A DNA stretch of 25,891 nucleotides. It comes from a virus. The notes under the pieces are model-generated. The model worked only from the letters and a program-made list of their open reading frames with translations, searched no databases and was not told the origin of the DNA. Of the stretch, positions 7,927 to 23,390 are shown piece after piece (position 1 is the stretch's first letter; each line of letters opens with the position of its first letter). The stretch lies in the IMG/VR virus record IMGVR_UViG_3300038548_000239, positions 1-25,891 of that record; one strand, written 5' to 3'. The position numbers and the translations under genes were made by a program.

Positions 7927-9147
7927 TTATGCAGCGATTCTGCAGGCCAGTTCAGGTCGCAGCGCGGCCCAGCCGTAGAGGATGTCCAACCTGCACGGGA
8001 ACTGGTCTTGGTTGATGTCGTAGGCTCGAACCATTCGTATGCTCAAACCCAGCTGCTTGTCGGCCACCCGCGCTGCCATGTCCACTCCGCGAGGGAGAGG
8101 AAGATCTGCGCTGGCGAGGGTAAACGCGTCCTTGTGGAACGCGAGACCCTGTGGTGTGACCGTGTTCTGCGTAGACGTCACCTCTCCGAACGTGAGGATC
8201 GCCGCCGCATTGGCCGGTGACGAGTCCACAGTCTGGAAGGCCCCGCTCGTGGTGATCGGCGGATCGATGTTGACGGTGCCGTCGCCGGACCCATCGCTAT
8301 CGAAGTTGCTGGTCACTACGAACTGCTGCAGCTGGCCGTTCGTCTGGCGAGACTGCGGGTTGACGTGCAGAACGTCCGCGAAGGTGATGACGTCTCCACG
8401 GTTCAGACGACGCGACGCAGAGGAGGTCCAAGCCTGGGTGATGATCGCGCTCCCAGTCTGACCAGCACCGTTGACCGTGGGTGTGCCACCCAGAGGGCCG
8501 ACAGTATGCGAGGTGACGTTCTGATCCATGTAAAATTCAAAACCCGCCGCGGTGCCCATCGCGCCCTTGCGATACTGAGCCGCGATCTCACTGGCCTGTT
8601 GGAACAGACCCTTGAGCGCATCGACCAGAGTCGCTTGCATCAATGGGGTGATAACGACGCACCGTGACCCGTCCATCGGGGTCGCGTCGTCGTCCAGCCG
8701 CACACCTGCCGTGAGGTAGACGAGAATCTCGACAGGAGTCGTGCCGGGTGCGCCGACGGTGTTCCAGACCTGCTGCGAGAGCAGCAGTCCATCGCGATCA
8801 ATCCTGTTACTGACGGTCGCTATGGCTGGCTTGATGAAGCGATCACGAAAGTCGTCGATGGACAAGGCCAGATCTTGCGAACTGAACTGGATGTCCACGC
8901 CGAATTGCGTGTCGAGCTCAACCGGAACCTGGGTTTCAGTCGAGTCCTCGATGGCCAGAGCCTGACCGACGCGCCCCACATACTGCGGTGGTTTGCGGAC
9001 GTTCAAGATCGTGCCGATCTTCGCTCCGTCAACAGCAAAGCGGTCGTCGTATTGGGTGTTGATCTGCTTGGTGAAGGTGAGGCTGTTCTCCAGAACCCTC
9101 AGCGCTTCTCGGGTGATGAGCCCGATGGTCAGCAGGGTATTAGCCAC
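7927..9147 (-). CDS. Major capsid (coat) protein, P22-like
   Basis: The main shell protein, HK97 fold. N-terminal SLTFTKQINTQYDDRFAVDG and GTILNVRKPPQYVGRVGQAL, the middle FSSQDLALSIDDFRDRFIKP, and LAFHKDAFTLASADLPLPRG near the end are typical of the P22 coat family; 406 residues against 430 in P22. The end (349-392) is the module echoed in RR-leader proteins 1 and 4. It starts at GTG with only a weak GTGAG before it, which is odd for such an abundant protein; A-rich sequence between scaffold stop and start (AAAAAAGTGAGCG) may help. Confidence 0.9.
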   Translation of the reverse strand: MANTLLTIGLITREALRVLENSLTFTKQINTQYDDRFAVDGAKIGTILNVRKPPQYVGRVGQALAIEDSTETQVPVELDTQFGVDIQFSSQDLALSIDDFRDRFIKPAIATVSNRIDRDGLLLSQQVWNTVGAPGTTPVEILVYLTAGVRLDDDATPMDGSRCVVITPLMQATLVDALKGLFQQASEIAAQYRKGAMGTAAGFEFYMDQNVTSHTVGPLGGTPTVNGAGQTGSAIITQAWTSSASRRLNRGDVITFADVLHVNPQSRQTNGQLQQFVVTSNFDSDGSGDGTVNIDPPITTSGAFQTVDSSPANAAAILTFGEVTSTQNTVTPQGLAFHKDAFTLASADLPLPRGVDMAARVADKQLGLSIRMVRAYDINQDQFPCRLDILYGWAALRPELACRIAA

Positions 9148-10295: not shown

Positions 10296-10577
10296 CTAAT
10301 GGATAAGCTGCGGCTGCATCCCACTGACGGTGATAGTCACGTCGGGGTCACAGTCGCAGTCGCGGTTGGGCTGAATGCACGCGCAGCTGGCCTCGTGTCG
10401 AATCGGCTGGAACTCCAGGTCACAGACGAACCCGACGGGTGTCTGCTCGTAGACCTCGGCCACGCACGCGGCGACCTTCTTGCCCAGCGCGGTATCAGGG
10501 TCGAAGCCATACTGGTGCTTCACCACGTCTTTGATGACCTGGTCGAGCTCGCCGCTGCGCTCATGAACGGTGGTCAT
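10296..10577 (-). CDS. Cys-rich small protein after portal, 93 aa
   Basis: It starts MTTVHERSGELDQVIKDVVK, coupled to portal by ATGA. A helical first half is followed by CDLEFQPIRHEASCACIQPN and RDCDCDPDVTITV. C52, C64, C66, C73 and C75 with H61 could bind zinc. No family is recognised. It lies between portal and scaffold, where small structural or assembly genes are common. Confidence 0.63.
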   Translation of the reverse strand: MTTVHERSGELDQVIKDVVKHQYGFDPDTALGKKVAACVAEVYEQTPVGFVCDLEFQPIRHEASCACIQPNRDCDCDPDVTITVSGMQPQLIH

Positions 10578-12850
10578 TTCTTCGCCGGCTTCGGCTTCTC
10601 CTTCGAGATGGCTCGCTTGTTGTCTTCAGTGAGTTGGGTCTGCTCAGCCGCCAGGTCGAGCTTCTCGCGGTCCACCTGGGCGCCGAGCTGCGCGATGAGG
10701 AGGTCCACCTTGGCCTCGAGCTTCGCGATGTCGAGTTGGTTGTCCTGTTCGTCCGCGGCGATGGACTGCGAGGTCACGTCCTTGCCGGCGGCGATGCGTT
10801 CGCGGGAGGCGTCCGATGCGGCCTTCGCACCAGCGTCGATCTCCTTGCCTTCGAGCTTCACGCGCTCCTTGTGCTCGTCGGTCTGGATCTGCTTGGCCAT
10901 CTCCTCCGCAGCCTGCTGGGCCTCTTGGAGCTGTGCCTCGAGCTGGTTGACCTTGGCCTGGGCCGCTGGCGGGAGCTCGCTCTCCTCCTGCATGGAGGGC
11001 GGCAGCTGGGTCTTCATGCGTGCCGCGAGCTGACGACCCCACGGGACGTCCATGTTCTCGACCAAAATATCCATGCCGAGCGCTGCAGCCTCGGGGAGCT
11101 TCTCAAACAGGCTGCTGATCGTGGCGACCGCTTCCTGCCGGCGGTTCTCGAACGAGCGGCCCACCATGACCGTCACGTCGAACACACCCACGTCGAGCCG
11201 GTAGATGCCACGAATGCCCGGCGGGAGGTTCTCTTCGTCCATCCCCGGGGGGGCGTTGCCCTCACCGGAGTAGACGGAGACCTGCATGGACTGCTCGTCC
11301 TCGCCGAGGATCCGCATGATGCGGTGCGTGTCATACACCTTCGGGATCAAGTCCACCAAGATCTCGCCGGTGTAGCGGATGGAGCGACCGAGGTTGTCGA
11401 GGTAGTTACTGGCGCCGAGCTCGGCCTGCTTCTGCAGCGCTTGGATCGCCTTGCCGCTGGTCTCCGATGGCGCGAGCTCACCGAGGCTCGACGCGTGGAA
11501 GCCGGTGACGTTCTTCAGGTTCTGGTCGGCGTGCATGGCCGCTTGGCTGATGGCCTGAATGGCCGGCTCAAACGTCTGCCGCGCTGGCGGCGGGAGCGGT
11601 TGCCCACCCTCCGCAGAAACATTGTTGTATTGCAGGTAGGGCCAGTTACGGACGTTCGCGCTGTCCCACTGCGCCTCGAAATTTTCTATCTGTCCCTTGG
11701 CGACAATAAAAGGTGCGCGGGGAGCGAGCGCGATAGCCTCGGTCAGTGCGCTCTCCCAGTAGTTGATCATCCGCTGGGGGTCACGCGCATCGCGGACGAG
11801 CCCTCGATAATCCTTCTGTCCGTTGATGTCGATCTCGTCGCCGACGACCTGCACGATGGGGATGTATTTGCCAGGCCAGTCACGACCCGCGGTGCGGTCC
11901 TTATTCCCGCTGAGGATGGCGCCGGCAGAGATGAGCGCCCACTTGACCTGCTTCTCGTTGAGCTTCCGACTCCCGACCTCGCGCCACATCGAGCTCGGTG
12001 TCTCGTTCTCGACGTGCCCCTGGCGGTTGAGCTCCTCCCACTCCGTGCGGAACATCTGCCGGGTTTCACCACCAGGCAATGCGAAGGTCACGAGCTCGCG
12101 CTTGATGTATTCGGTATAGAAATACTCGGCAACCCGAATCTTGCCTTCCGGCAACCAGTCCTGACCCTGGTCGCCCATCGTGGCAAACTCGGTCAGGCTG
12201 TCGAAGGTCGCGTGCGGCCACCGAATCTTGAACTCCTCCTTCGCGATGTCTTCGACAATGAACGCGAAGCGAGCGTCCGAGAGGTCGGCCTCGTTGCAGG
12301 CCACGTCCATGTAGACCGAGAAGGGGTTGATGATCCGCTTGATGCGAATCTGCTGCTTGTCCGATTTGTCGCTCTCGTATTCGGTGAGGATGCGCCAGTA
12401 GCCGCGCCCCATGGTCGTCTGGTGCTCGCCGGCCTGGGTGTAGGCGACGTCAGCGTTGCTCGTGTTCTCGATGTGCCGGATGAGCCCCTGGAAGACCTGC
12501 GCGGTGTCGATGTCCCCTGCGCTATCGACCGGGCTCACCTTCACCGCTGGTCGGTTCTGCCGCTGGGCGTTCGTCACTTGCCGGATGAACTCAGGCAAGC
12601 GGTTGATCGTGAGGCAGGGTCGGTTGTCCGTCTGACGGTTGTTCTTGACCGTGTCGGGCCACTGGTCGGAGGCGCGGAACCTGAGGTCCTCGAGCATCTC
12701 CTGCCGGTTGCCGGCCTCGGTCTCAGCGATGGTCCGCCACCGCTGCATGGCCAGCGCGAGGAACTGCCGGGTCGCCTCGGGTATCTCGGTGCGCTCGCCC
12801 TCTTGGAGCTCGAGGTTGACGTGCCTGACCGCCTGCAGGGCGTCAACCAT
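10574..12850 (-). CDS. Portal protein (P22-like)
   Basis: Twelve copies should form the ring at one capsid vertex through which DNA enters. The 758-residue length is close to the P22 portal (725). Early signatures include QWPDTVKNNRQTDNRPCLTI and LPEFIRQVTNAQRQNRPAVK, a pattern I associate with the P22 portal family. RIINPFSVYMDV and GLVRDARDPQRMINYWESAL follow, then the clip/stem region. The long C-terminal stretch is a charged coiled coil (from about residue 640: QLEAQLQEAQQAAEEMAKQI) resembling the P22 barrel. It ends KEKPKPAKK. No truncation is seen. Confidence 0.9.
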   Translation of the reverse strand: MVDALQAVRHVNLELQEGERTEIPEATRQFLALAMQRWRTIAETEAGNRQEMLEDLRFRASDQWPDTVKNNRQTDNRPCLTINRLPEFIRQVTNAQRQNRPAVKVSPVDSAGDIDTAQVFQGLIRHIENTSNADVAYTQAGEHQTTMGRGYWRILTEYESDKSDKQQIRIKRIINPFSVYMDVACNEADLSDARFAFIVEDIAKEEFKIRWPHATFDSLTEFATMGDQGQDWLPEGKIRVAEYFYTEYIKRELVTFALPGGETRQMFRTEWEELNRQGHVENETPSSMWREVGSRKLNEKQVKWALISAGAILSGNKDRTAGRDWPGKYIPIVQVVGDEIDINGQKDYRGLVRDARDPQRMINYWESALTEAIALAPRAPFIVAKGQIENFEAQWDSANVRNWPYLQYNNVSAEGGQPLPPPARQTFEPAIQAISQAAMHADQNLKNVTGFHASSLGELAPSETSGKAIQALQKQAELGASNYLDNLGRSIRYTGEILVDLIPKVYDTHRIMRILGEDEQSMQVSVYSGEGNAPPGMDEENLPPGIRGIYRLDVGVFDVTVMVGRSFENRRQEAVATISSLFEKLPEAAALGMDILVENMDVPWGRQLAARMKTQLPPSMQEESELPPAAQAKVNQLEAQLQEAQQAAEEMAKQIQTDEHKERVKLEGKEIDAGAKAASDASRERIAAGKDVTSQSIAADEQDNQLDIAKLEAKVDLLIAQLGAQVDREKLDLAAEQTQLTEDNKRAISKEKPKPAKK

Positions 12851-14171: not shown

Positions 14172-14411
14172 TCACCCGATGTGGTTCTCCTCCAGCATCC
14201 GCTTGACCGTGTCGTCCTTCAGCTGCGCCATGACGTGCCCCCAGAGCTCCGTCGAGTAGTGCGTGTGGAGCTCAGACGCCGAGTATTCATGGATGTGCGC
14301 GTGGGGGATGAAGGTCTCGAACGACGCGATGGTGGTGTCCCACTGCATCCGCAAGGTGACGCGGATGTGGGTCCGGGGGCTGGGCTTCACGAAGGCCTCT
14401 GCCACCTTCAC
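14172..14411 (-). CDS. Hypothetical protein, 79 aa
   Basis: I choose the GTG at 14411, which overlaps the phosphatase stop (GTGA) and has an AAGGGGAAG site 5-6 bases upstream, over the ATG at 14441 buried in that gene. The protein reads MKVAEAFVKPSPRTHIRVTL. It is beta-rich at first, then His-rich (FIPHAHIHEYSASELHTHYS), then helical. The histidine pattern might bind metal. No family is recognised. It is the last gene before a regulatory-looking spacer. Confidence 0.6.
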   Translation of the reverse strand: MKVAEAFVKPSPRTHIRVTLRMQWDTTIASFETFIPHAHIHEYSASELHTHYSTELWGHVMAQLKDDTVKRMLEENHIG

Positions 14412-14860
14412 AGGGTCTTCCCCTTCCACCGGTGCCGACACCGGCGCATCAGGTCAAAGTCGGCCCCGAGCTCTTCATCTGCGATCAATAGCAGAAGTGG
14501 GTTGGGCTGGACCTCGGGGTTGTCCTCGAGGAACCGATTGACCGACGCCGGGTCACGCTTCCATAGCAGCGCACAGGCTAGCGCTGCGCTCCTCGATAGC
14601 CCATGCTGGCAGTGTATCAGGACCCGCGGCTCTTCGATCAAGAGGACGCTCCGCACCGCGTCCTTGTAGGCGCTCAGCTGGTTGAGGTAGATGTCCTTGC
14701 AGCCGGCCTTGAGCATCGGGACGTCGCCGAGCTCGACCCCCGGAGGGACGCAGGAGACCACCAGGTCAGGCTTGAAGTCCCGCAGCTTGTTCTCGAGGGC
14801 CACCAGCCCACAGACCTGGATGCCGTCGTCCACCGGGTTTCGCACCCAGTGACCGCTCAT
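14408..14860 (-). CDS. Protein tyrosine / dual-specificity phosphatase-like
   Basis: A Cys-dependent phosphatase fold. The signature loop HCQHGLSRS (83-91) fits H-C-x5-R-S/T exactly: nucleophile C84, phosphate-binding R90, and S91. Before it runs the usual strand PRVLI, and after it the helix AALACALLWKR. D46 or D56 could be the general acid, but I cannot place it with certainty. At 150 residues it is the size of compact dual-specificity phosphatases. The start MSGHWVRNPV is set by the ATGA overlap. It could dephosphorylate host proteins, nucleotides or RNA caps; inference only. Confidence 0.75.
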   Translation of the reverse strand: MSGHWVRNPVDDGIQVCGLVALENKLRDFKPDLVVSCVPPGVELGDVPMLKAGCKDIYLNQLSAYKDAVRSVLLIEEPRVLIHCQHGLSRSAALACALLWKRDPASVNRFLEDNPEVQPNPLLLLIADEELGADFDLMRRCRHRWKGKTL

Positions 14861-15066
14861 TTTTGGGTCCTCTCGAAGGCGAGGTCTCTGAACGCGTGCC
14901 ATGTCGCGTCCTTCGACATAGACTTGACGGTCTCGTATCCCACCTTGCCCAGGTCCCAGTGCATCGTGTTGCTCCCCACGACCTCGATCTTCGTCGCGAA
15001 GACGTTCTCAGGGTGGCCGTCCTCGGTCTCCGTGATATGCACAAGGACCTCCAGCGTCGTCCTCAT
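14857..15066 (-). CDS. Hypothetical protein, 69 aa
   Basis: It starts MRTTLEVLVHITETEDGHPE, chosen by the ATGA overlap with the nuclease half; a reading three codons longer exists. The layout is beta-rich: strand, acidic turn, strand VFATKIEVVG, then a helical end (SKDATWHAFRDLAFERTQK). No family is recognised. It overlaps the phosphatase-like gene by ATGA. Confidence 0.62.
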   Translation of the reverse strand: MRTTLEVLVHITETEDGHPENVFATKIEVVGSNTMHWDLGKVGYETVKSMSKDATWHAFRDLAFERTQK

Positions 15067-15839
15067 TGCATCCACTCCTGACCGGCTTGCCCCTGAGTCA
15101 CGTAGCGGGTGACCCGCTCACCCTCGACTGGTGTGGCCATGAGCCAGTTCGCATTGCCGATCAGCGCGAGCATGAAATACCTCGTCGCGTCCATCAGGTG
15201 GTCGTTGTCCTTGACCACCTTGCCATCGTCGTTCCGAGCGTAGACCCGATACTCCTCGAACCACGCATGGCACGACTCGAAGACCTTCAGCTTCCCCTTC
15301 GACAGCGCGGAGTAGATCGCGAGGATGCCGGCCTCGACGGCGTTGGGCGCCAGGTTCAGCTGCAGCCCGAGACCGGTGTAGATCGTCATCAACCGCTTGC
15401 CGTCAATCTGCGAGCGTCCGTTCGACGCCGGGTCGATGCGACCAGGGATCCACTTCCCAAGGGCCAGGATGGCCGACGCGTGCGAGGGGGGCTCACCATG
15501 CCCCCGTGAGTAGGCGTAGTAGAGATAGAGCGTGTCGCTCTGCCGGTCGTGCGCGAGGAACGCTGCGGCCGTCCTGTTCCAGCCGACGTCCATGCCGTAG
15601 CCCCGCGGCCAGCTTGTGGGGATATCAAAGTCTTTGACGACGATATCCTTCTCGCCGAACGGGTAGATGAGACCGCTCCCCAGGTAGGGGATGCCCTGTG
15701 TTCGTGCCTCCCGTTGAAACTCGGGGATGGACCGGAAGAGCTCACGTCGCTCGAGCTCGCTGAGGTGTGGTGCATCATCCCAAGTCGCCGAGAGCATCAA
15801 CCGGGTGGCGGGGTCGTCCTCACCAACGACCTGGGCCAT
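15063..15839 (-). CDS. terL: Terminase large subunit, nuclease half
   Basis: This is the RNase H-like domain that cuts the DNA concatemer. The first 60 residues are the usual TerL linker: SATWDDAPHLSELERRELFR, then GIPYLGSGLIYP. The nuclease core follows with MDVGW (Asp84, first metal ligand) and DNDHLMDATRY (211-221) with the late acidic residues. An ATG (15839) with AAGGGA 4 bases upstream starts the frame, and an in-frame stop lies 18 bases before it, so this is not a longer gene. The split falls exactly in the linker between the ATPase and nuclease domains. The two halves could assemble by non-covalent contact. The stop overlaps the next gene by ATGA. Confidence 0.87.
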   Translation of the reverse strand: MAQVVGEDDPATRLMLSATWDDAPHLSELERRELFRSIPEFQREARTQGIPYLGSGLIYPFGEKDIVVKDFDIPTSWPRGYGMDVGWNRTAAAFLAHDRQSDTLYLYYAYSRGHGEPPSHASAILALGKWIPGRIDPASNGRSQIDGKRLMTIYTGLGLQLNLAPNAVEAGILAIYSALSKGKLKVFESCHAWFEEYRVYARNDDGKVVKDNDHLMDATRYFMLALIGNANWLMATPVEGERVTRYVTQGQAGQEWMQ

Positions 15840-16371
15840 ACTGTCCCTTGGCGTCTATTGTCGCCAACCGAGTCCGCGTGGCAACGCGTGAGAGATCCGT
15901 GTAACTCCCTGCCCCCGCTCCACCTCCACGGTGACTAAGTCCGTGCTGCTTCTCGCAGCCAACTCGTGCATACGACGACAGCCGCTCGCCGAGCTCTGCC
16001 TCGAGGACCATGAGTCCCTCAGGCGAAAGCTGGATATTCTCCTCACGCTCGCGTCGTCCGTTTGCAGCGAGATGATGCCGGTCGGCGCGAAGAAGCTGCC
16101 AGCCCTGGTTGAAGTAAAGCGACGTGTGGCCAGCTTCGCCCAGCCGGTTGGACGCGACGTCGAGTCGATACCGCTCGCCCATTTGTTCCGGGTGTAGAAA
16201 CCTCTCCACCTCCGCAGACGTAGCGAGATGGACCTCCTTTGCTGGGAGGAAGATGGTCTTCCGACCTGGCACCCAGAGCAGCTTCTCCGGGTCGAGCTCC
16301 AACGCTGCGGCGGTTGCTGCGACGGTGGTGCCTAGCAGCCCGAGAAACCCTCGCCGTGACCACTCACCCAT
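15820..16371 (-). CDS. RR-leader protein 5, 183 aa
   Basis: It starts MGEWSRRGFLGLLGTTVAAT: SRRGFLG matches the Tat consensus best of the five. It has a clean hydrophobic core and a possible cleavage after ATAAA. The next segment LDPEKLLWVPGRKTIFLPAK is a strand-rich piece with WVPG. The C-terminal third is Arg/Gly-rich (HRGGGAGAGSYTDLSRVATR) and ends GQYGPGRW. The start overlaps the previous gene by 8 bases; the end overlaps the nuclease half of terminase by 20 bases and contains its AAGGGA site. Function unknown. Confidence 0.72.
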   Translation of the reverse strand: MGEWSRRGFLGLLGTTVAATAAALELDPEKLLWVPGRKTIFLPAKEVHLATSAEVERFLHPEQMGERYRLDVASNRLGEAGHTSLYFNQGWQLLRADRHHLAANGRREREENIQLSPEGLMVLEAELGERLSSYARVGCEKQHGLSHRGGGAGAGSYTDLSRVATRTRLATIDAKGQYGPGRW

Positions 16372-16987
16372 GTCGTAGTTCCTTCCCTAAGAACATCTCG
16401 AGACCCCGGCGGTCGATGTCATCCGCGAGGCCCTTCGACAGCCTCTTGATTTCCTTCTCGTAGTCGGCCCGTTGCTGCCCGATGAGTTGGTCAGGGGTCA
16501 CAACCAGGTCCGCCGGTATCTTCAGCTCGGGCACCTTCATCGTGATCGGGTTGACCTTATACGTGTGCGGGAACTCCACGATGTCCCCCACCTTGAGCGG
16601 CGGAGCGTCATCGAAGGACGCCGGGTCAATCCATTGCCCAGGCTTGAACGGGAACGGTGGAGCTGCCTCCCCCCACGCCCCGGGGTCGTGGAGCTCACTC
16701 AGCTGCAGCTCCCCCTCGGGGAGCTTGCCCCATCCGTAGAGAATGTCCATCTTGCTCGAGGGCCCAGGCGTCACCTCGTAGCTCTTGATGAACCTCATGC
16801 TGATGCCGGGGGCATACTGCCGCTCGAACTCCGCACGCGACATCGTCTCCTGCACCATGCACCAGCCCTGGTCCCAGAGCCGCTTGCTCTCGTGCCGCAT
16901 CCACGCGAGATTCATGTCGAAGAAGCTGACCGTCGAGACCGCGACCGCCGCCTTCGCTGCGCCGAAGATGAACGAGCGTCTATCCAT
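16364..16987 (-). CDS. RR-leader protein 4 with short coat-like motif
   Basis: The start is MDRRSFIFGAAKAAVAVSTV at the ATG inside the 8-base overlap with protein 3; a longer frame starting 46 codons upstream is a shadow. A Tat-type leader is followed by FFDMNLAWMRHESKRLWDQG. Residues 61-86 (GISMRFIKSYEV ... KMDILYGW) match coat-protein residues 367-393 (GLSIRMVRAYDI ... RLDILYGW) with a one-residue gap. Then comes a Pro-rich middle (GEAAPPFPFKPGQWIDPAS) and a charged helical end (KEIKRLSKGLADDIDRRG). The coat-like motif is thus internal here, unlike in protein 1. Role unknown. Confidence 0.74.
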   Translation of the reverse strand: MDRRSFIFGAAKAAVAVSTVSFFDMNLAWMRHESKRLWDQGWCMVQETMSRAEFERQYAPGISMRFIKSYEVTPGPSSKMDILYGWGKLPEGELQLSELHDPGAWGEAAPPFPFKPGQWIDPASFDDAPPLKVGDIVEFPHTYKVNPITMKVPELKIPADLVVTPDQLIGQQRADYEKEIKRLSKGLADDIDRRGLEMFLGKELRHG

Positions 16988-17468
16988 ACCAGTTTTCCAT
17001 CTTGGGATACATCCGCGCCCCGGCTTTGTATTGCGCGGCGAGCTTGCTCCAGAGCCTGGCGTCCGCGGGGTCTGCCCCGTGTCGCAGGCAGTAGTTCTCA
17101 TACTTCCTCTCGAGCGTCGGCCCATCCAATGCGTAGAACGCCTCGACCGCGGTGACGGACTGCTTCCGAGCGTCGATCACTTCCATTGTCTTGCGGTCGA
17201 GCTGGAGCAGCCCCTCGCTGTCCCACCGCACCAGGAGCTCGTCCTTGTCCATCAGCTCCGGGGCATTGCTCAGGTCCGCGGTCATGATGAGCTTGCCGTT
17301 CTGTCGGAGCTCAAGCGCGAGGGCTCGGTCGAGCAGCACCGCCGGCATGTTGAGCGGTGGCCAGACGAGGTTGTCACCGGCCAGCCGATAGGCCGCGCCA
17401 ATGTCGAAGAACGCGACCGTCGGGACGACCGCTACGCCGAGCGCTTGAAGGAACCGTCGCCTGTCCAT
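16980..17468 (-). CDS. RR-leader protein 3, 162 aa
   Basis: It starts MDRRRFLQALGVAVVPTVAF; DRRRFLQ is very close to the Tat consensus and the hydrophobic stretch runs to about residue 25. The segment VAFFDIGAAYRL resembles VSFFDMNLAWMR in protein 4, so these two leaders look paralogous. The mature part has a strand-rich stretch (LALELRQNGKLIMTADL) and a helical C-terminus (LWSKLAAQYKAGARMYPKM). The ribosome-binding site is weak (GAGG far upstream). The end overlaps the next ATG by 8 bases (ATGGATAG). No coat-like module seen. Function unknown. Confidence 0.72.
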   Translation of the reverse strand: MDRRRFLQALGVAVVPTVAFFDIGAAYRLAGDNLVWPPLNMPAVLLDRALALELRQNGKLIMTADLSNAPELMDKDELLVRWDSEGLLQLDRKTMEVIDARKQSVTAVEAFYALDGPTLERKYENYCLRHGADPADARLWSKLAAQYKAGARMYPKMENWYG

Positions 17469-17590
17469 GATGTATGGCCCGTTGCCTCTGACAGGTGGGC
17501 GAGACCTGTTTTCTCCTCAGACCCAGGATGTCCGCCAGGACTGAGGTCCAGAGTGGCCCTTGTTTCCACAGGTGGGCGTGGGCCTGTCAT
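17432..17590 (-). CDS. Possible small ORF overlapping RR-leader 3
   Basis: An open frame of 52 residues whose ATG overlaps the stop of the 52-aa gene (ATGA), as real joints do in this window. It reads MTGPRPPVETRATLDLSPGG and continues Gly/Ser/Thr-rich to a stop inside the next gene. It covers the intergenic repeat pair and runs 37 bases into RR-leader gene 3 in another frame. Composition and the lack of recognisable structure make it doubtful; the stretch may instead be a regulatory spacer. Confidence 0.2.
   Translation of the reverse strand: MTGPRPPVETRATLDLSPGGHPGSEEKTGLAHLSEATGHTSWTGDGSFKRSA
17491..17509. repeat. Inverted repeat, copy 1 (regulatory candidate)
   Basis: ACAGGTGGGCGAGACCTGT: perfect 6-base arms (ACAGGT / ACCTGT) around a 7-base centre. 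The first 11 bases are identical to copy 2 at 17568. It lies in the spacer ahead of RR-leader gene 3. On the plus strand it is followed by TTTTCTCC, but no plus-strand gene exists, so a terminator reading is unlikely. It could be an operator or an RNA hairpin. Confidence 0.4.
17568..17587. repeat. Inverted repeat, copy 2
   Basis: ACAGGTGGGCGTGGGCCTGT: 5-base arms (ACAGG / CCTGT), with 11 leading bases shared with the copy at 17491, centre-to-centre distance about 78. It touches the stop codon of the 52-aa gene. Two related dyads in a 118-base spacer within an otherwise overlapping operon suggest control of the downstream RR-leader genes. Confidence 0.4.
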
Positions 17591-17745
17591 CTGACCCCGC
17601 TGGGCCGGAACCCGAGTATCTCTGTGGCTTTCTCTTCAGCCTTTTCCCGTGTGAGGCCGTGGTCGTATTCCAAGATGGCGGCTCGCTCTTCCCACTCGAT
17701 ACGACGGTCGTCTTCGGTCCACGTTGATCGCAATGGCGAGACCAT
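17587..17745 (-). CDS. Small soluble protein, 52 aa
   Basis: A frame of 52 codons starting MVSPLRSTWTEDDRRIEW with a GGAGAAGG site 4-5 bases before the ATG. The segment EWEERAAILEYDHGL followed by TREKAEEKA is a pattern I have seen in small conserved bacterial, plasmid and phage proteins (E..A.ieYD.gl.reeAe..A); their role is unknown to me. It breaks the run of RR-leader genes and has no leader of its own. The pattern is strong evidence that this is a real gene. Confidence 0.65.
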   Translation of the reverse strand: MVSPLRSTWTEDDRRIEWEERAAILEYDHGLTREKAEEKATEILGFRPSGVR

Positions 17746-17780
17746 GCGCCTTCTCCAGGGAACGACGACTCACCGGCAGT

Positions 17781-18329
17781 CTAGCCAATCTCGGCGACAG
17801 GACGGCCACCACCCCACTCCAGTGTCAGCCGGTTGCCCGGGAGTATCCAGAAGGGGTCGTTGCCCCCGCTGTCCTGTGGCCTGAACGCCATACCGAACGC
17901 CACATCTTGGAACGCGCCCGACCCAAGGTCAACCTCGAACCGCAGGCCGGGGATAGCCAGCACCTCGCCGACACAGCGCACAACCCATAACTTCTCTTCG
18001 GTGTCGTTCTCGACGTAGACGTGGTCAACAAGCGGGAAGAACTTGCACCGTGGCCCCTGACCACTGATGGCCTTCATCGGGCTGAACGGCACCACCTCGA
18101 CGCGGGTCTTCATCAGCCACCGGTGGAGCACCTCGAGCGGAGCCGCCGCCCCATCGAGCGGGTCAGCGAAGTCGCCCTTGAGTCCGTAGAGCTCGAGCTG
18201 AAGGTGGGCGTGGTCCTCCTCGGGCGCCTCGACCGGCTTGCCCAGGAGCACCTTCTCGGAGACCTTGGTGAGGACGAACCCCGCCACTATCGGCGCGGAC
18301 GCGCCTTTGATGAACCCTCGTCTATCCAC
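17781..18329 (-). CDS. RR-leader protein 2, 182 aa
   Basis: A GTG start within the 8-base overlap GTGGATAG gives MDRRGFIKGASAPIVAGFVL, a Tat-type leader (DRRGFIKG then hydrophobic). The body has beta-rich segments, for example DHVYVENDTEEKLWVVRC and GLRFEVDLGSGAFQDVAFG, reminiscent of small beta-sandwich domains, and ends GGGRPVAEIG. I do not see the coat-like module that protein 1 carries. Its leader is closely similar to those of proteins 1, 3 and 4 while the bodies differ, as if one leader were shared by unrelated cargo domains. Function unknown. Confidence 0.72.
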   Translation of the reverse strand: MDRRGFIKGASAPIVAGFVLTKVSEKVLLGKPVEAPEEDHAHLQLELYGLKGDFADPLDGAAAPLEVLHRWLMKTRVEVVPFSPMKAISGQGPRCKFFPLVDHVYVENDTEEKLWVVRCVGEVLAIPGLRFEVDLGSGAFQDVAFGMAFRPQDSGGNDPFWILPGNRLTLEWGGGRPVAEIG

Positions 18330-18987
18330 AGAGCACGTCCCATCGAATCTTGTAGCCGTCCCAGCTGAGGTCGTAGGTGCTCACCGTCCTCATGCAGAGC
18401 CCGGTCTGCTCGCAAACGTAGTTGCCGACCCACAGGCACCCGTGCGGCAGCGGCAGCATCCCGCAGATCCGCTTGCCCTCAAGGAGCTTGGCAGCGTTGG
18501 GTGGGTGCTCCTTTGGGTCGAAGTGTTTGAAGTTGTCCTCTTTCACCCGGTAGTAGTCGAACTCCTCCAGCATCTGCCCATCCGTCCAGTGGCTGGTCCG
18601 GTCTATGAAGTCGTCATACTCGAACTCGGGCGGGTTATCCCCAGCCAGCGCGATGGGGAGGTCAACGTGGCAGTTCATCTGCCGGTCCATCGAGATCATC
18701 CGGTGGGACCGCGCCGTGACGCTCCCGACCTTGTCCACCTTGTCGTTGAGCCGGAAGACGTGATCACACGCCGCGGTGAGCCGCACAAACACGTTCTCCG
18801 ACAGCGACATCATCAGTCGGTCGCCAGCGTTCTCCGGGGGCCTGCTCAGCACCGTGATGGGGCCATGCTGTGCACGCTGAACGTGCGGGACGTCTCCGCC
18901 CAGTGCTACCGGACCAGCCGGCAGGACTGTCGGCACCAGCGCCAGTGGCACCGCCGCGCTCCCCTTCATGAACGACCGCCTATCCAT
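18322..18987 (-). CDS. RR-leader protein 1 with coat-protein-like C-terminus
   Basis: It begins MDRRSFMKGSAAVPLALVP: twin arginine, then F and K at the Tat-consensus spacing (S/T-RRxFLK, here D-RRSFMK), and a weakly hydrophobic segment. No clear Ala-X-Ala site follows, so it may stay membrane-anchored. The 221-residue body is Cys-containing. Its last 44 residues (178-221) align without a gap to residues 349-392 of the coat protein of this phage, sharing LPLPxG, G-L, R, V, YD, D, R, D, L and G (17 identities by eye). The role is unknown. The end of the gene overlaps the next start by 8 bases through the shared string TGGATAG. Confidence 0.75.
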   Translation of the reverse strand: MDRRSFMKGSAAVPLALVPTVLPAGPVALGGDVPHVQRAQHGPITVLSRPPENAGDRLMMSLSENVFVRLTAACDHVFRLNDKVDKVGSVTARSHRMISMDRQMNCHVDLPIALAGDNPPEFEYDDFIDRTSHWTDGQMLEEFDYYRVKEDNFKHFDPKEHPPNAAKLLEGKRICGMLPLPHGCLWVGNYVCEQTGLCMRTVSTYDLSWDGYKIRWDVLCG

Positions 18988-19187
18988 CAGACCCTGACCT
19001 TGGGGAACTTCGTGGTGATCTTCTCGAGGAGCGCGTTGTAGCGCTTCCCGGCTATTTGCTCCGCGTTGAGCCGGTCGCGGTCTTCCCGGCTCGAGACGGC
19101 GTGCCGTTCCTTCGCCTCGTCGAACGCACGCCAGGCCTCGCCGAGCTCCACCGCTAGCTCATCGAGCGTCTGGTCTACCTCCGTCAC
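18987..19187 (-). CDS. Short charged helical protein, 66 aa
   Basis: It starts MTEVDQTLDELAVELGEAW, coupled to tatA by ATGA, and ends FPKVRV with a TGATG joint to the first RR-leader gene. It is highly charged and predicted as one or two long helices. There is no leader and no membrane segment, so it should be cytoplasmic. Its position between tatA and the RR-leader genes suggests a chaperone-like or assembly role for the exported proteins (redox-enzyme chaperones are much larger, so it is not one of those). This is inference from context only. Confidence 0.6.
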   Translation of the reverse strand: MTEVDQTLDELAVELGEAWRAFDEAKERHAVSSREDRDRLNAEQIAGKRYNALLEKITTKFPKVRV

Positions 19188-19396
19188 TCGTTGACCGCTT
19201 TGTTGATGGCTCGGGTGGCGTCCTTGGCATCCTTGGTCACGTCGTCTACCTGACTCTCAAACGCCTTCTTCACACCCTTGAACTCGCGGATGGTCTCACC
19301 GATGGCCTTGCCCAGCTTCGGCAGTTGCCGCGGTCCAAACAACACCACACAGATCAGCGCGATGATCATGAGCTCCTGAACTCCAACCATTCCCAT
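19184..19396 (-). CDS. tatA: TatA-family twin-arginine translocase subunit
   Basis: TatA oligomerises in the inner membrane and lets TatBC move folded proteins across. The 70-residue protein has every TatA hallmark in order: a short periplasmic N-terminus, a transmembrane helix with polar E8 (QELMIIALICVVLF), the hinge FGPRQLPKL (20-28), the amphipathic helix GKAIGETIREFKGVKKAF, and a charged acidic/basic tail. Glu at position 8 occurs in TatB and in many TatA/E proteins outside the enterics; the short length favours TatA/E. The start has an AGGAG site 6 bases upstream. It lies directly before five genes with twin-arginine leaders, a context that strongly supports the assignment. Its presence in a phage is unexpected. 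Confidence 0.9.
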   Translation of the reverse strand: MGMVGVQELMIIALICVVLFGPRQLPKLGKAIGETIREFKGVKKAFESQVDDVTKDAKDATRAINKAVNE

Positions 19397-19459
19397 GTTG
19401 TTCTCCTCTTCAGAGACCTGGTAGCCAGCGCCAGAGCCAACGCCACCGGCCTCTTCTCC

Positions 19460-19885
19460 TTAGTTGCGAGTTATCACCAGACCCTGGGGGTCCGCCGGGG
19501 TTGCCACGTTTGAAAAAGGGTTGCTATCCGCGCTACCCCCTGACACTAGTAGTGGGTCGGCGACACTGATCGCCTTGGCGCGTCCGAAGTAGTCCCCGGG
19601 CAGGAACGGTCGCACGGTCTGCGTGATGTCGAACGAGCAGAGGTCGTCGTCCCCGTCGAGGTCCCAGTCATGCTGAAGGTGCGCGGTGCCGGGGTTCACG
19701 ACGTTGCCCGGGGGGATAGGAGGCAGCGGGGCGCCATCGACGCACGAGCCGTCGTCACCCAAGACGGAGCCCTGTTGGAACGGAGCGTTCGCCCCAACAA
19801 AATACCAGTCCATCTCGTAGCGGATGGTCTGCGCCATCACCGGCGAAGCGACGAGCACGATCAGGGCGGCTAGAAAGAGTCTCAT
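19460..19885 (-). CDS. Sec-secreted protein with Ca-binding-like loop, 141 aa
   Basis: The start MRLFLAALIVLVASPVMAQ is a textbook Sec signal peptide (basic n-region, hydrophobic core, A-Q cleavage after VMA); the longer frame upstream is not needed. The ATG overlaps the previous stop and has a GGAGAAGAAG site. The mature part begins TIRYEMDWYFVGANAPFQQG, has two cysteines (C49 and C83), and an acidic run DWDLDGDDD like the DxDxDG loop of EF-hand or dockerin calcium sites. It is probably periplasmic, secreted or outer-surface. No enzyme family is recognised. Finding a Sec protein immediately before tatA suggests this block is concerned with export. Confidence 0.7.
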   Translation of the reverse strand: MRLFLAALIVLVASPVMAQTIRYEMDWYFVGANAPFQQGSVLGDDGSCVDGAPLPPIPPGNVVNPGTAHLQHDWDLDGDDDLCSFDITQTVRPFLPGDYFGRAKAISVADPLLVSGGSADSNPFSNVATPADPQGLVITRN

Positions 19886-20259
19886 GTCTTCTTCTCCTTG
19901 ATTTTGATCCACGACCGCGAGGCCGTGAACTTCCTATCGAGCTCACCCATCGCCTCGCTGGTGTGTCGCTGCATCCCGCCCATTATCGTGTCGTAGATCG
20001 TTGCGAGCGCCTCGAGCTCGGTGTCCACGGCCAGCTTGAACGCTCGACGCATCCAATACTCGAGCTGGTCACCTGAAGCCCAACATTCATGGCCTTCCGG
20101 TGCGAACTTTGCCTCACTCACTAGCGCGTCGAGTGCGTCACTCTGGTCTGGCACGGTGCGGTCGGTCAGCAGCAGGGGACGCCCTCTGTCTCCACGAGCG
20201 TGGTGCATATCCACGAGCGCTTGGTGGTTCTCCTCGGCGGTCTTCTTCACCGTCCCCAT
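19882..20259 (-). CDS. Hypothetical helical protein, 125 aa
   Basis: It starts MGTVKKTAEENHQALVDMH with a GGGGAG site 4-5 bases upstream, overlapping the sulfotransferase end by 13 bases. It is mostly helical, with a middle segment CWASGDQLEYWMRRAFKLA and a lysine-rich C-terminus (IKIKEKK). Its last codons include a GGAGAAGAAG purine stretch that is the ribosome-binding site of the secreted protein that follows. No membrane segment or recognised family. Confidence 0.6.
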   Translation of the reverse strand: MGTVKKTAEENHQALVDMHHARGDRGRPLLLTDRTVPDQSDALDALVSEAKFAPEGHECWASGDQLEYWMRRAFKLAVDTELEALATIYDTIMGGMQRHTSEAMGELDRKFTASRSWIKIKEKKT

Positions 20260-20915
20260 GATACTCCCCAGCCCAGCGGCAGGCCGTCGTAGGTCACGTT
20301 CGCCACCCGCCTGTCCCAGAGCAGCCGGTAGAGCACGAAGTCCACGGCGTAGTGGCTGAAGAGGTGCTCCCGCGCTCGCGCCACGTTGCCGACCATCGGG
20401 TCGCGCCGGGTGAATTTGGACTCCTCGAGGGTGTTGCGATAAGCCGGTGGCGGCACATACGTCCAGCGCTTGAGCCGGCAGAGCGCGGCGAAGTCTTCCT
20501 CGATATGCTCGAGGTAGATCATGACGTGCGGCAGCAGCTTCCCATCGAGCATGAACTCCGCCGCCTGGGTGCGGACGTGCTGGTTGCTCCCCAGGTCCTT
20601 GCCCAGGTCACGCAGCCAGATCTCGAAGCTCACCTTGACGCCGCTGAACCCCCACATCGAGAGCGCCCTCGCGTAGGGCTCACGCATCAGGCCGACCACC
20701 AGCTGCTTGCTCCGGTCGATGTCCTTGAGCGCGATGTAGTCGAACCGACCCTGCGTCGAATGGATGTGGTAGTCGAGCTTCCGCTCCTTCGCCATGTTGT
20801 CAATCGGCACACCGAAGCGCGACAGCCAGACCATCAGCTTCAGCGTGGTATTGCCGGCGCGACACGGCATCAGGAACACGGTGTCCCCCAGGTTGACGTT
20901 GTTAGGTTCCGGCAC
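20247..20915 (-). CDS. Sulfotransferase-like protein
   Basis: It probably transfers sulfate from PAPS to a sugar or other acceptor, possibly on the host surface or a phage component. The N-terminal loop FLMPCRAGNTTLKLMVW (14-30) corresponds to the 5'-phosphosulfate-binding loop of the sulfotransferase fold, with T23/T24 in the expected place. GLMREPYARALSMWGF (75-90) matches the 3'-phosphate motif RdPy.R..S.y, with R78 and S86. The 222-residue length is normal for short Sulfotransfer families. The usual loop Lys of PKTGT is replaced by Arg, so activity is not certain. The GTG start has a GGAGGG site. It lies inside the terminase interruption, near the exported proteins. Confidence 0.7.
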   Translation of the reverse strand: MPEPNNVNLGDTVFLMPCRAGNTTLKLMVWLSRFGVPIDNMAKERKLDYHIHSTQGRFDYIALKDIDRSKQLVVGLMREPYARALSMWGFSGVKVSFEIWLRDLGKDLGSNQHVRTQAAEFMLDGKLLPHVMIYLEHIEEDFAALCRLKRWTYVPPPAYRNTLEESKFTRRDPMVGNVARAREHLFSHYAVDFVLYRLLWDRRVANVTYDGLPLGWGVSWGR

Positions 20916-21054
20916 GGGGATCCCTCCACCTCTCCGCGGGGCGGATGACCTCCACCTTCAGGACGGCCTTGAGCACCCGCTCGAGCTCCTTCACTCGATC
21001 CTCGATGGCCTTGCACCTCGTCTGCAGCTCCGCGATCCTCGCTTGCTCAATCAT
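20902..21054 (-). CDS. Short coiled-coil protein, 50 aa
   Basis: It starts MIEQARIAELQTRCKAIEDR, 8 bases after the previous stop, with the ATG inside a TGATGA string. It is almost one continuous charged helix with heptad leucines and isoleucines up to about residue 36, then a basic tail (RPAERWRDPRAGT). The 3' end overlaps the sulfotransferase gene by 14 bases and contains that gene's GGAGGG site. No function is assigned. Confidence 0.55.
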   Translation of the reverse strand: MIEQARIAELQTRCKAIEDRVKELERVLKAVLKVEVIRPAERWRDPRAGT

Positions 21055-21062
21055 CAGGAGGC

Positions 21063-21314
21063 CTAGGTGTCCAGGCACAGCACGCGCCACTCAGGCACCG
21101 GGAGCGGGAGACGCTGGAGCGCCGTGACGTAGCACTGCCCTCGAGGGGTCAGCTTGTAGGTGCGCTCTTCTTCGGGGGCGAGCTCGAGGAGCTCCTCATG
21201 CACGAGGAACATCTCGCGGGTCGCTGCCCAGATGGGTGGGTTCTGCGACACCACCCGGTGGTCCTCGGGGCTGACGGCGTAGTGGCAGAGGATGCCCATC
21301 TCGAACAGGGTCAT
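21063..21314 (-). CDS. Winged-helix-like small protein, 83 aa
   Basis: It starts MTLFEMGILCHYAVSPEDH, coupled by ATGA. The order is helix, helix with EMFLVHEELLELAPEEE, then strand-turn-strand in YKLTPRGQCYVTAL. This is the typical ending of small winged-helix or phage regulatory proteins, where LTxxG.xyv..L marks the wing. It could bind DNA or be a structural relic; the match is only general. Confidence 0.55.
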   Translation of the reverse strand: MTLFEMGILCHYAVSPEDHRVVSQNPPIWAATREMFLVHEELLELAPEEERTYKLTPRGQCYVTALQRLPLPVPEWRVLCLDT

Positions 21315-21598
21315 ACCTCGAGCTCGGTGATGACCTGCTGGATGTGGTTGGTCATGCTCGCAACCTTCCGCATCTGCTGCTCGATGTGGTGGAAGACCTT
21401 GCCCCCAACGGGTGGGTCAGGCGCGTTGTCGGCCTCGACCGGTCGCGCCTCACGGATAGGCTCGAGCTGGCTGAAGAGCTCCGACAGCTGGGCCCAGTGC
21501 TGGTCGAGGAGGGCGTCGAGGTTGTCGAGCTGCGAGGTGACCTGCTTCTGTCGTCCGGTGCTGGGCGGGTTGTTTGGGGCAATGGCTGGCATTGACAT
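21311..21598 (-). CDS. Hypothetical protein with helical core, 95 aa
   Basis: The first gene inside the terminase interruption. Its ATG overlaps the stop of the ATPase half (TAATG) and has a very strong GAGGAGG ribosome-binding site inside that gene. An N-terminal Pro/Asn-rich linker (MSMPAIAPNNPPSTGRQK) is followed by helices (LDNLDALLDQHWAQLSELF and HHIEQQMRKVASMTNHIQQ). This suggests a small oligomeric coiled-coil protein. No family is recognised. Confidence 0.65.
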   Translation of the reverse strand: MSMPAIAPNNPPSTGRQKQVTSQLDNLDALLDQHWAQLSELFSQLEPIREARPVEADNAPDPPVGGKVFHHIEQQMRKVASMTNHIQQVITELEV

Positions 21599-22464
21599 TA
21601 TTCCTCCTCTGGCTCGACGTAGATGTCGGGCCGGTCTGCGTTCTTCATCCACTCCTTGACCAGACCCGTGCGCCCCTTGAGCGGGGTGTAGGTCATCACG
21701 ATAATGCCGCCGGGGAAGTCCGACGTCCTGGCTGTCCTCAGCAGGCACTCGGTGTAGATGTCCATCGGTGGCTCTTCATCGAGCCAGATGCCGTGTTGCG
21801 CGGTGCCTTGGAAGGCCTCGCGTCGTTGGTCGTAGCTCTTGAGCTCGCAGTGGCTGATGCCGCCGCTGGCGTGCTTCACCCAGAAGGTTTCGTAGGCGTC
21901 TGGCACGCCGCTCTTCTTGGTCTTGTGGACGAGCAGATGCGCGGGGATGAAGCCGGTGCCGATGGCGGTCGGTGGACCGAGGAGCTTGAGCTGGATGATG
22001 TTCCTGGCCGTCTTGCCGGTGTCGCCGGCACACCACCAGCTGACCGCTTCGCTGAACCGACGACCGCGCCACCACGGAGGGTAGAGACCGGTCAGGTGGA
22101 GCGTGGCCTCATAGGCGCCGAGCTCGCTCTTGCCGATGCGGTTCGCCGCCATGATGCACCGCTCCCGGTATCGCGACCCGGCCTGCATCAGGTAGACGTG
22201 CTTCGGGTAGAGCGCTCGACAGTAGCGCTGCGTGCCGTCCAGGTTCTTGTGGTCCTCCTTCACCGGGCTCGGGATAGGCGAGCCCACCGGATACCAGGCG
22301 AGCGTGGCCACCGCGCCCTTGAGCTTCCTGAACGTCGCCCTCGAGACGTTCTTGCACTCGGTCGTGCAGTCGGGGAAGTAGAGCCCGAGCTTGTAGCCGC
22401 TGCGGTGTGATGTGTTCTGCTGGCCACGAGTCTCACGGCTGCGAGACATCTCTTTCCTACTCAT
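21598..22464 (-). CDS. terL: Terminase large subunit, ATPase half
   Basis: This is the DNA-packaging motor ATPase. Walker A is AANRIGKS at residues 106-113, Walker B with the catalytic Glu is GIWLDEE at 225-231, and the coupling motif MTYTPLKG is at 257-264. These match the large family of phage TerL proteins reading (A/G)GNRxGKT ... LDEE ... TPL.G. The protein ends at residue 288, just after that motif, where an intact TerL of about 500 residues would run on into the nuclease domain. That domain is encoded separately at 15063-15839. The start overlaps the previous gene; Met6 (22449), preceded by AGGAAAGAG, is an alternative. A strong GAGGAGG site at its 3' end serves the next gene. No intein-like ending is seen. 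Confidence 0.88.
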   Translation of the reverse strand: MSRKEMSRSRETRGQQNTSHRSGYKLGLYFPDCTTECKNVSRATFRKLKGAVATLAWYPVGSPIPSPVKEDHKNLDGTQRYCRALYPKHVYLMQAGSRYRERCIMAANRIGKSELGAYEATLHLTGLYPPWWRGRRFSEAVSWWCAGDTGKTARNIIQLKLLGPPTAIGTGFIPAHLLVHKTKKSGVPDAYETFWVKHASGGISHCELKSYDQRREAFQGTAQHGIWLDEEPPMDIYTECLLRTARTSDFPGGIIVMTYTPLKGRTGLVKEWMKNADRPDIYVEPEEE

Positions 22465-23032
22465 CGTCCATGCGCCCTTCGGCGATGATGGTGTTGAGCC
22501 TTAGCACCTGTTGCATGAGCTCGGTGACTCGGCTCTCGGCCTGCTGCAAGTCGTTGTAGATGTTCTCACGGTCCTGCATCATCCCGCCGTATTGGCGACC
22601 GACCCGGCCCAGTTGCTCCTTGAGCTCACCCACCTCGATGTGCAGCTGACCGACCTCGGTGGCTTTCGGCCCAAGCTCGTCCGACATCGCGCTATTCGCC
22701 CGAAGCTGCTTATCGTAGAGCCCCTCCCACTCACGCGCCTGTCGGTCAGCAAGTCGAGACATCCCGCTGAGCTGCGAGTAGTCGCTCTCGTGGCGGCGGC
22801 ACATCTCCGCCAGCTGCTTGAGCGCCTCGAGCGCGAGCTCCAAGCGCCGGGTGTCCGTCCGCCGACGTCCGTCCCTGATCTGCTGCAGCTGCTCCTGGTA
22901 GAGCTCACCAGGGGAGCGCTCTTCGATGACCTGGAGCGGGTTGTCCACCCACGGCGAGCTCCTGTGGCAGTTGCACTGCTCATCGCTCCCAGGTCGGAAC
23001 TTCGGACAGGTGGGTTGATGTCTAAGCGGCAT
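22457..23032 (-). CDS. Coiled-coil protein with N-terminal Cys cluster, 191 aa
   Basis: It starts MPLRHQPTCPKFRPG and overlaps the previous gene by 11 bases. The first 25 residues contain C9, C20, C22 and H23, a possible metal site. From about residue 40 to the end the sequence is almost entirely charged heptad-like helix (for example LELALEALKQLAEMCRRHE and GELKEQLGRVGRQYGGM), so a long coiled coil is expected. It sits directly before the terminase ATPase half and overlaps it by 8 bases. It could be an adaptor or scaffold for packaging, but there is no family match by eye. Confidence 0.65.
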   Translation of the reverse strand: MPLRHQPTCPKFRPGSDEQCNCHRSSPWVDNPLQVIEERSPGELYQEQLQQIRDGRRRTDTRRLELALEALKQLAEMCRRHESDYSQLSGMSRLADRQAREWEGLYDKQLRANSAMSDELGPKATEVGQLHIEVGELKEQLGRVGRQYGGMMQDRENIYNDLQQAESRVTELMQQVLRLNTIIAEGRMDDE

Positions 23033-23390
23033 TGGCTAACCAGAACCAGGTCCCGACCATCGTGCAATAGTGGATGCACTGGTCGCCCCCGACCACCACG
23101 AAGAAGTTGTGCCAGTCCGGTGATTCGTCTTGGGCGAAGTAGCGCGTGCCCTGCGAGGTCACGGCGTCGGTCAACCCATGGAGCCCTCCGTTCATCACCA
23201 CCCAGTAGAACGGGTGCTCCATCCCGGTCGGATCCGCGCCATACGCCCACACCCCCAGCACTACCGTGTAGACGGCGGTATGGAGCCCGAGCGCCAGCGG
23301 GTTGCGAGCCTTGTTGCTGGCCATCCAGTCCGACTGGAAGACGAAGTCGCCCAGGTAGTGAAACATGAACAGCAGCAGCCAGTCGGTCAC
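23022..23390 (-). CDS. DUF3307-like membrane protein
   Basis: A 122-residue integral membrane protein. The N-terminal segment HYLGDFVFQSDWMASNK (11-27) followed by LHTAVYTVVLGVWAYG matches my recollection of the DUF3307 family signature (H.lgDF.fQ.dwma.nK....l..H...Yt). Three hydrophobic stretches are visible, with conserved-looking His residues (H11, H37, H70) and a later GGDQCIHYCTMVGTWFW. The family has no firm biochemical role known to me; it occurs in bacteria and sometimes in phages. It lies in a cluster of membrane proteins just upstream of the terminase ATPase gene, so a lysis or envelope function is possible but unproven. Confidence 0.7.
   Translation of the reverse strand: MTDWLLLFMFHYLGDFVFQSDWMASNKARNPLALGLHTAVYTVVLGVWAYGADPTGMEHPFYWVVMNGGLHGLTDAVTSQGTRYFAQDESPDWHNFFVVVGGDQCIHYCTMVGTWFWLANAA

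Follow-up and report, generated by a model that had tools for sequence, protein, structure and literature searches.

A 25.9-kb fragment of viral DNA, IMG/VR record IMGVR_UViG_3300038548_000239 (positions 1 to 25,891, this whole stretch being the window in what follows), comes from a soil-type phage with a portal and a coat protein of the P22 type and codes for a homolog of TatA, a component of the bacterial twin-arginine translocation (Tat) system. Along with it are encoded five small proteins (RR1 to RR5) with N-terminal leaders bearing the twin-arginine motif RRxF, and all of these genes lie between two separately encoded halves of the large terminase subunit (TerL). The explanation that best accounts for these sequences, to which we assign a probability of about 0.6, is a Tat module encoded by the phage, with one tatA gene accompanying small twin-arginine-leader cargos in a cargo-rich TerL gap. 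The host TatBC receptor would recognize the RR leaders, the phage TatA, encoded in the same operon, would join or replace the host TatA, and the phage cargo would then cross the inner membrane or be inserted in it. That the leaders really target the cargo to Tat, that the process depends on the host TatBC and that expression is late are inferences.

A phage TatA and its pairing with twin-arginine leaders

The window TatA (19184..19396, on the minus strand, as are all genes of the TerL gap, both TerL halves and the portal and coat genes) matches PF02416 with E=2.1e-15 and 56.1 bits, the curated cut-off being 21, and the NCBIfam TatA/E subfamily models with E=7e-17 and 3e-14, slightly below their cut-offs. 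It displays the short transmembrane helix, FG(P) hinge and amphipathic helix of the TatA/E proteins, and the motif FGPxQLPK is kept in an alignment of six phage TatAs. Judged by its sequence, it is beyond doubt a genuine member of the family, as a first-pass annotation of the window had proposed. In a tree with 31 cellular TatAs, nearly all from Acidobacteriota, the six phage TatAs cluster with a support of 0.90 and that of L269 stands apart, although the tree can say only so much with an alignment this small and sequences retrieved by a pattern. TatA matches were also seen in five unannotated Listeria and Staphylococcus “phage” records (OR848130, OR846748, OR848119, OR846728 and OR849886), which are possibly host DNA.

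The five leaders that the first-pass annotation had listed are all present, and each combines RRxF(L/I/M) near the N-terminus with a hydrophobic stretch: RRSF in RR1 (18322..18987), RRGF in RR2 (17781..18329), RRRF, then FFDIGAAY, in RR3 (16980..17468), RRSF in RR4 (16364..16987) and RRGF in RR5 (15820..16371). RR1 and RR5, with 19.6 and 20.2 bits, lie above the 16.7-bit cut-off of the Tat signal model TIGR01409. The RR5 leader (LDPEKLLWVPGRKTIFLP), with its DPERLLWVPG, is of a type common to other phages, composed of RRxFL, an Ala-rich stretch and (L)DPERLLWxPGxKTIFLP (5e-20 against the model of this RR-DPER leader); those of RR1 to RR4 keep RRxF but lack DPER. Phenylalanine occupies its RRxF position in 69 of 81 relatives, the distance from RR to DP is 15 residues in 44 of 79, with small residues common, and the RRxF motif persists in front of cargos that have nothing else in common. 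Long leaders of the classical kind, with an AxA site, occur in several relatives, among them L006:15746 and the L216 protein.

The pairing of such leaders with tatA was examined by running TatA-only patterns over 2.9 million viral contigs, which yielded five further viruses (L263, identical to L264, L265, L266, L268 and L269) chosen without regard to RR genes. All five encode RR leaders, and in four of them the leader model is matched with E<=6e-12. The RR gene directly precedes tatA in L263/L264; tatA overlaps the RR gene, with the portal gene next, in L265; the RR gene lies 2.6 kb from tatA in L266 and at another place in the same contig in L268; and in L269, which has a divergent TatA, tatA overlaps a non-DPER RR gene. 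In L218, selected by its RR genes, an RR-DPER gene runs at its end into tatA. Direct adjacency or overlap of the two kinds of gene is hence seen in L263, L265, L269 and L218. The patterns were built from the TatAs of the window and L218, which hence do not count as independent among the seven viruses, six besides the window, that have tatA and RR leaders together. Phage tatA and RR-leader genes co-occur repeatedly in uncultured phages. With the two so often paired, and with RRxF retained ahead of unrelated cargos, real Tat targeting is the best reading. To that extent, the first-pass proposal that a phage Tat component goes together with Tat-type cargo gains strength, whereas the export and the purpose attached to it continue to be a model.

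The RR-leader family is widespread and almost purely viral. A pattern scan for the RR-DPER leader returned 107 stretches in viral contigs, of which 89 were confirmed. Cellular genome contigs amounting to 257 Gb gave only six, four of which are clear, in metagenome-assembled genomes (MAGs) of Acidobacteriota and Verrucomicrobiota, and these two phyla are candidates for the host. None was found in plasmids. Among 50,697 phage records, tblastn with RR4 and RR5 gave no matches and the leader consensus only sub-significant ones. Scans with the single TatA or RR2 protein found no matches, and alignment queries were needed. On contigs that show landmarks on the same strand, most RR-leader genes lie upstream of the terminase or portal. 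L209 and L213, the only pair close enough for such a test, show a ratio of nonsynonymous to synonymous substitution rates (dN/dS) of ~0.07 in leader and cargo alike; hence, their RR mosaic is kept as a protein under purifying selection.

Coat-protein segments in the RR cargos

Many RR cargos have a further property, missed by the first reading of the window, in that they are mosaics of coat-protein segments. A profile of the coat C-terminus, searched against 21,418 open reading frames (ORFs), matched nine distinct non-coat ORFs at E<0.1, and all nine, including RR1 and RR4 of the window, have an RR leader. With the full coat profile (independent E-value, iE, <0.01), segments were detected in 25 of 87 RR-DPER cargos, compared with none of 1740 shuffles and nine of 1327 control ORFs. 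These nine comprise two truncated coat genes and four RR-leader proteins whose leader is of a different type (L103, L089, L216 and L240); one more, in L253, has the segment after a transmembrane segment, and the last two are without a leader. In the L253 protein (3839-4252), encoded beside an RR-DPER gene, a segment of the coat spine helix follows an N-terminal membrane helix that is not of the RR kind, and the common theme may accordingly be membrane anchoring rather than Tat alone.

The coat regions represented in the cargos are the N-helix and arm, the spine helix, the insertion-domain strands, the FHxDAF strands and the C-terminal strands. The C-terminus of RR1 resembles coat residues 350-393 (iE 1e-6 with the hidden Markov model, HMM, of the major coat protein). 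In RR4, a portal-like bit (portal HMM iE 7e-4; 0.006 in a larger set) is followed by coat pieces in permuted order, 361-397 before 251-272 (coat HMM iE 1e-5 and 0.015), and in L187 the N-helix is joined straight to the C-terminal strands. Portal pieces in L203 and L084 are weak matches, and no match was identified for the cargos of RR2 and RR3. An Acidobacteria MAG contig (L250:1469-2527) has three consecutive RR-DPER genes with coat N-helix, middle and C-terminal segments, respectively, upstream of a P22-like portal gene. The matches span only 20-65 residues, and none of the RR proteins has a complete HK97 fold; AlphaFold2 modeled the RR protein of L209 with low confidence (pLDDT, the predicted local distance difference test, of 48), and the model was not used. 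The P22-like profile and fold, which mark the family that is the source of the capsid segments, are found together in the intact coat gene of the window alone (7927..9147; PF11651 2e-39; AlphaFold2 pLDDT 86; Foldseek TM-score 0.73 to the Sf6/P22 coat). The cargos are not fresh copies of each phage's own coat gene, which ranks only 2nd to 32nd of 81 coats, with a median best identity of 42.5%. TerL pieces, suspected in L103, scored no better than shuffles by HMM, and an HMM test for scaffold pieces in RR proteins found none.

Bacterial immune sensors detect phage coat, portal and terminase proteins, and phage decoys counter such sensing (CapRel, Avs). The purpose that we favor, as a speculation of low probability, is capsid mimicry, whereby coat- and portal-like segments would bind a partner that normally recognizes the coat or portal and Tat would put this partner in the membrane or periplasm. 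Doubtful in a more specific form, the idea would have the mimic segments bind cytoplasmic sensors of coat or portal, with the folded complex exported or pinned in the membrane and the sensor thereby disarmed. Decoy or assembly roles may be inferred for the RR cargos. They might tether head assembly to the membrane, although export by Tat would bring them to the periplasmic side.

The split terminase and its surroundings

The ATPase half of TerL (21598..22464) has a Walker A motif AANRIGKS and a Walker B motif GIWLDEEPP (PF03237 9e-13; phrog_31467 6e-57; phrog_2 4e-15), and the nuclease half (15063..15839) has GMDVGWN and KDNDHLMDA (PF17289 5e-11; phrog_5653 1e-21). Both the ATPase and the RNase H-like nuclease domains of a large terminase are hence found, split over two genes that flank the block, as the first-pass annotation had it, at a distance of 5,758 bp. 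The N-terminal half covers positions 1-153 of the Terminase_6N model (E=9e-13) and the C-terminal half positions 162-210 together with Terminase_6C (5e-11); as these are adjacent and non-overlapping parts, the cut falls between model positions 153 and 162 and little has been lost. TerL is fused in 59 of the 86 distinct related records with both halves in view and specified by two genes in 27, with gaps from 0 to 8,313 bp, the shortest of which could be sequencing frameshifts but not the long ones. In L084, the coat of which is 65% identical to that of the window, the halves are adjacent overlapping genes with RR genes upstream; in L006, 3.9 kb separates them and an RR gene directly precedes the nuclease half; and in L103/L169, they are 8.3 kb apart, with NeuB/NeuC/NeuA-like genes and Sec-leader proteins in between and, immediately ahead of the nuclease half, two RR genes. 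Because relatives have a split TerL with cargo in the gap, the TerL junction is a variable cargo site of the lineage and no assembly artifact. In the window, gene overlaps continue without break across both junctions by direct reading, G+C content is even along its length, and no intein or intron was seen at the split on reading the sequence. The genes in the gap of the 24-kb contig L169 (1429-4725) code for NeuB, a UDP-GlcNAc 2-epimerase (NeuC-like) and a CMP-sugar synthetase-like protein, which suggests phage-encoded synthesis of nonulosonic acid.

Besides TatA and RR1 to RR5, the window gap contains a Sec-leader protein and small unassigned genes. Next to the ATPase half are a small coiled-coil-like protein (21311..21598), the start of which overlaps the TerL stop by 1 base, and an 83-aa protein (21063..21314), both devoid of family matches, followed by a coiled-coil-like ORF of 51 codons (20902..21054). 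The succeeding gene (20247..20915) had been called sulfotransferase-like, a label that found no support: for its product, Pfam gave no match up to E 10, PHROGs and NCBIfam gave none either, and nothing in the PDB matched it meaningfully, the P-loop-like MPCRAGNTTLK together with LMREPYARALSMW being suggestive only. A 125-aa protein of unassigned function (19882..20259) separates it from a protein (19460..19885) in which direct reading recovers the anticipated Sec-type signal peptide (MRLFLAALIVLVASPVMAQ leader), without a family match. A charged 66-aa protein (18987..19187) lies between tatA and RR1 and is coupled to both. Coupling by short overlaps, which the first-pass annotation had claimed throughout, is mostly the case, RR5 for instance overlapping the start of the nuclease half by 20 bases; the exceptions are 63 bp before TatA and ~310 bp between RR2 and RR3, the sole larger gap of the cluster, which contains an ORF of 52 aa (17587..17745). 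RR1, RR2 and RR4 start with (A/G)TGGATAG(A/G)CG (MDRR), and at RR2 and RR4 the TAG within this sequence terminates the RR gene in front; at these two genes the RR leader motif thus doubles as a coupling signal.

The P22-like portal gene (10574..12850; PF16510 8e-165) is separated from the terminase by a dual-specificity phosphatase-like protein (14408-14902; PF00782, only just at the cut-off). Upstream of the terminase is a DUF3307 membrane protein (23022-23390). An MptE-like protein (1997-2941; PF01973, a family with flagellin-glycosylation relatives) and a methyltransferase (2928-3509) are encoded side by side among the structural genes and may be related to glycan modification. At the contig end, a probable tail-associated protein (3-890) has C-terminal imperfect repeats of PGxGALVFxGxAP.

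Alternative explanations and known systems

Several points weigh against a Tat module. TatC was not found within the window, so that the host TatBC would be needed, with the phage TatA adding to or replacing the host pool, as established Tat biology would suggest. RR2 and RR3 reach only 13.0 and 13.6 bits with TIGR01409, below its cut-off, and RR4 is not listed; in 21 of 79 relatives the stretch from RR to DPER is a mere 11-12 residues, short for a Tat h-region. Of the five leaders that the first-pass annotation took to be of Tat type, RR1 and RR5 pass this curated model and RR2 to RR4 do not. Nor is a conserved element such as DPERLLWxPG usual in signal peptides. The module was expected in related genomes, where RR-leader genes and the split TerL do recur, but a PF02416 search recovered TatA from only one (L218) of 171 distinct related records; many of these are fragments, but with 170 of them lacking TatA, most RR-leader phages manage without it. 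The TatA patterns, drawn from the window and L218 only, undersample the diversity of phage TatAs, and the dN/dS estimate comes from one pair.

With DPERLLWxPG conserved and many hydrophobic stretches short, the main rival takes the RR leader for a phage-specific interaction domain, an RRxFL helix with DPERLLWVPGxKTIFLP, rather than an export signal; it would tie the capsid-like segments to the assembling head or the cytoplasmic membrane, with TatA as a membrane partner or an accidental neighbor. Conservation that extends beyond any cleavage site, the likeness of the cargos to pieces of coat and portal and the location of RR genes upstream of terminase or portal agree with such a domain. We nevertheless consider it unlikely, as tatA is recurrently paired with RR genes in independent viruses, RR1 to RR4 have RRxF without DPER, and several relatives retain the long AxA leaders.

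Since TatA is, from general knowledge of the Tat system, a protein with a short transmembrane and an amphipathic helix that assembles in the membrane, the phage version might instead be a holin-like lysis protein that permeabilizes the membrane, the RR genes being incidental or triggering its assembly. This is improbable in view of the family-typical FGP hinge and amphipathic helix, the RR-leader genes accompanying TatA in seven of seven viruses and the lack of a recognized endolysin or spanin beside TatA in the window. That the segments are short, permuted in RR4 and different between phages, and that the cargo in the terminase gap varies, could point to functionless, decaying recombination by-products in a mosaic late operon. 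The low dN/dS of L209/L213, a leader conserved over the 89 proteins found and cargos only ~42% identical to the nearest coat protein with the reading frame still open make decay highly improbable. As for an assembly chimera at the terL breakpoints, nothing but the unusual gene order speaks for it, and it is refuted by the unbroken overlaps through both junctions, the even G+C and the order of ATPase half, cargo and RR genes, and nuclease half in L006 and L169, the latter with its 8.3-kb block at the same junction; the first-pass annotation, which had named chimerism as a danger, is upheld on this point.

We know of no phage with its own Tat component plus dedicated Tat-type substrates, and in the open-licence literature searched, neither a phage Tat component nor such cargos were found described, and small leader-bearing proteins made of shuffled coat segments were not either. 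It is the combination of a phage tatA, dedicated RR cargos and capsid mosaics for which no counterpart was found, the TatA alone being an ordinary family member. If confirmed, the Tat module would enable phages to deliver folded proteins into the inner membrane or past it. Coat sequence would then have a new use apart from the capsid, and virion proteins would be linked to the host envelope or immunity in a way that can be tested. The RR family is easily searched and tested, with its short genes and plain leader motif, and TatA can be assayed by complementation.

Among known systems, the TerL coding sequence of cyanophage Mic1 is interrupted by an intein (PMC7156551), whereas the window halves are separate co-directional genes around a multigene block, with adjacent or fused halves in close relatives. 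The phage module shares with the bacterial Tat translocase (TatA/E, PF02416; TatBC receptor) a true TatA sequence, leaders with the Tat-consensus RRxF and the pairing of tatA with RR-leader genes; it differs in being phage-encoded and without TatC, and its cargos are small and capsid-like rather than redox enzymes or hydrolases. A speculative analogy can be drawn to the sensors and decoys of the CapRel and Avs systems, as the RR cargos copy parts of sensed proteins, namely the coat and, weakly, the portal. With the P22/Sf6-type coat of the HK97 fold (PF11651), they have in common the segments matching the N-helix and arm, the spine helix, the insertion domain and the C-terminal strands, but they contain only pieces of it, sometimes permuted and set behind an RR leader, while the intact coat gene stands elsewhere in the genome.

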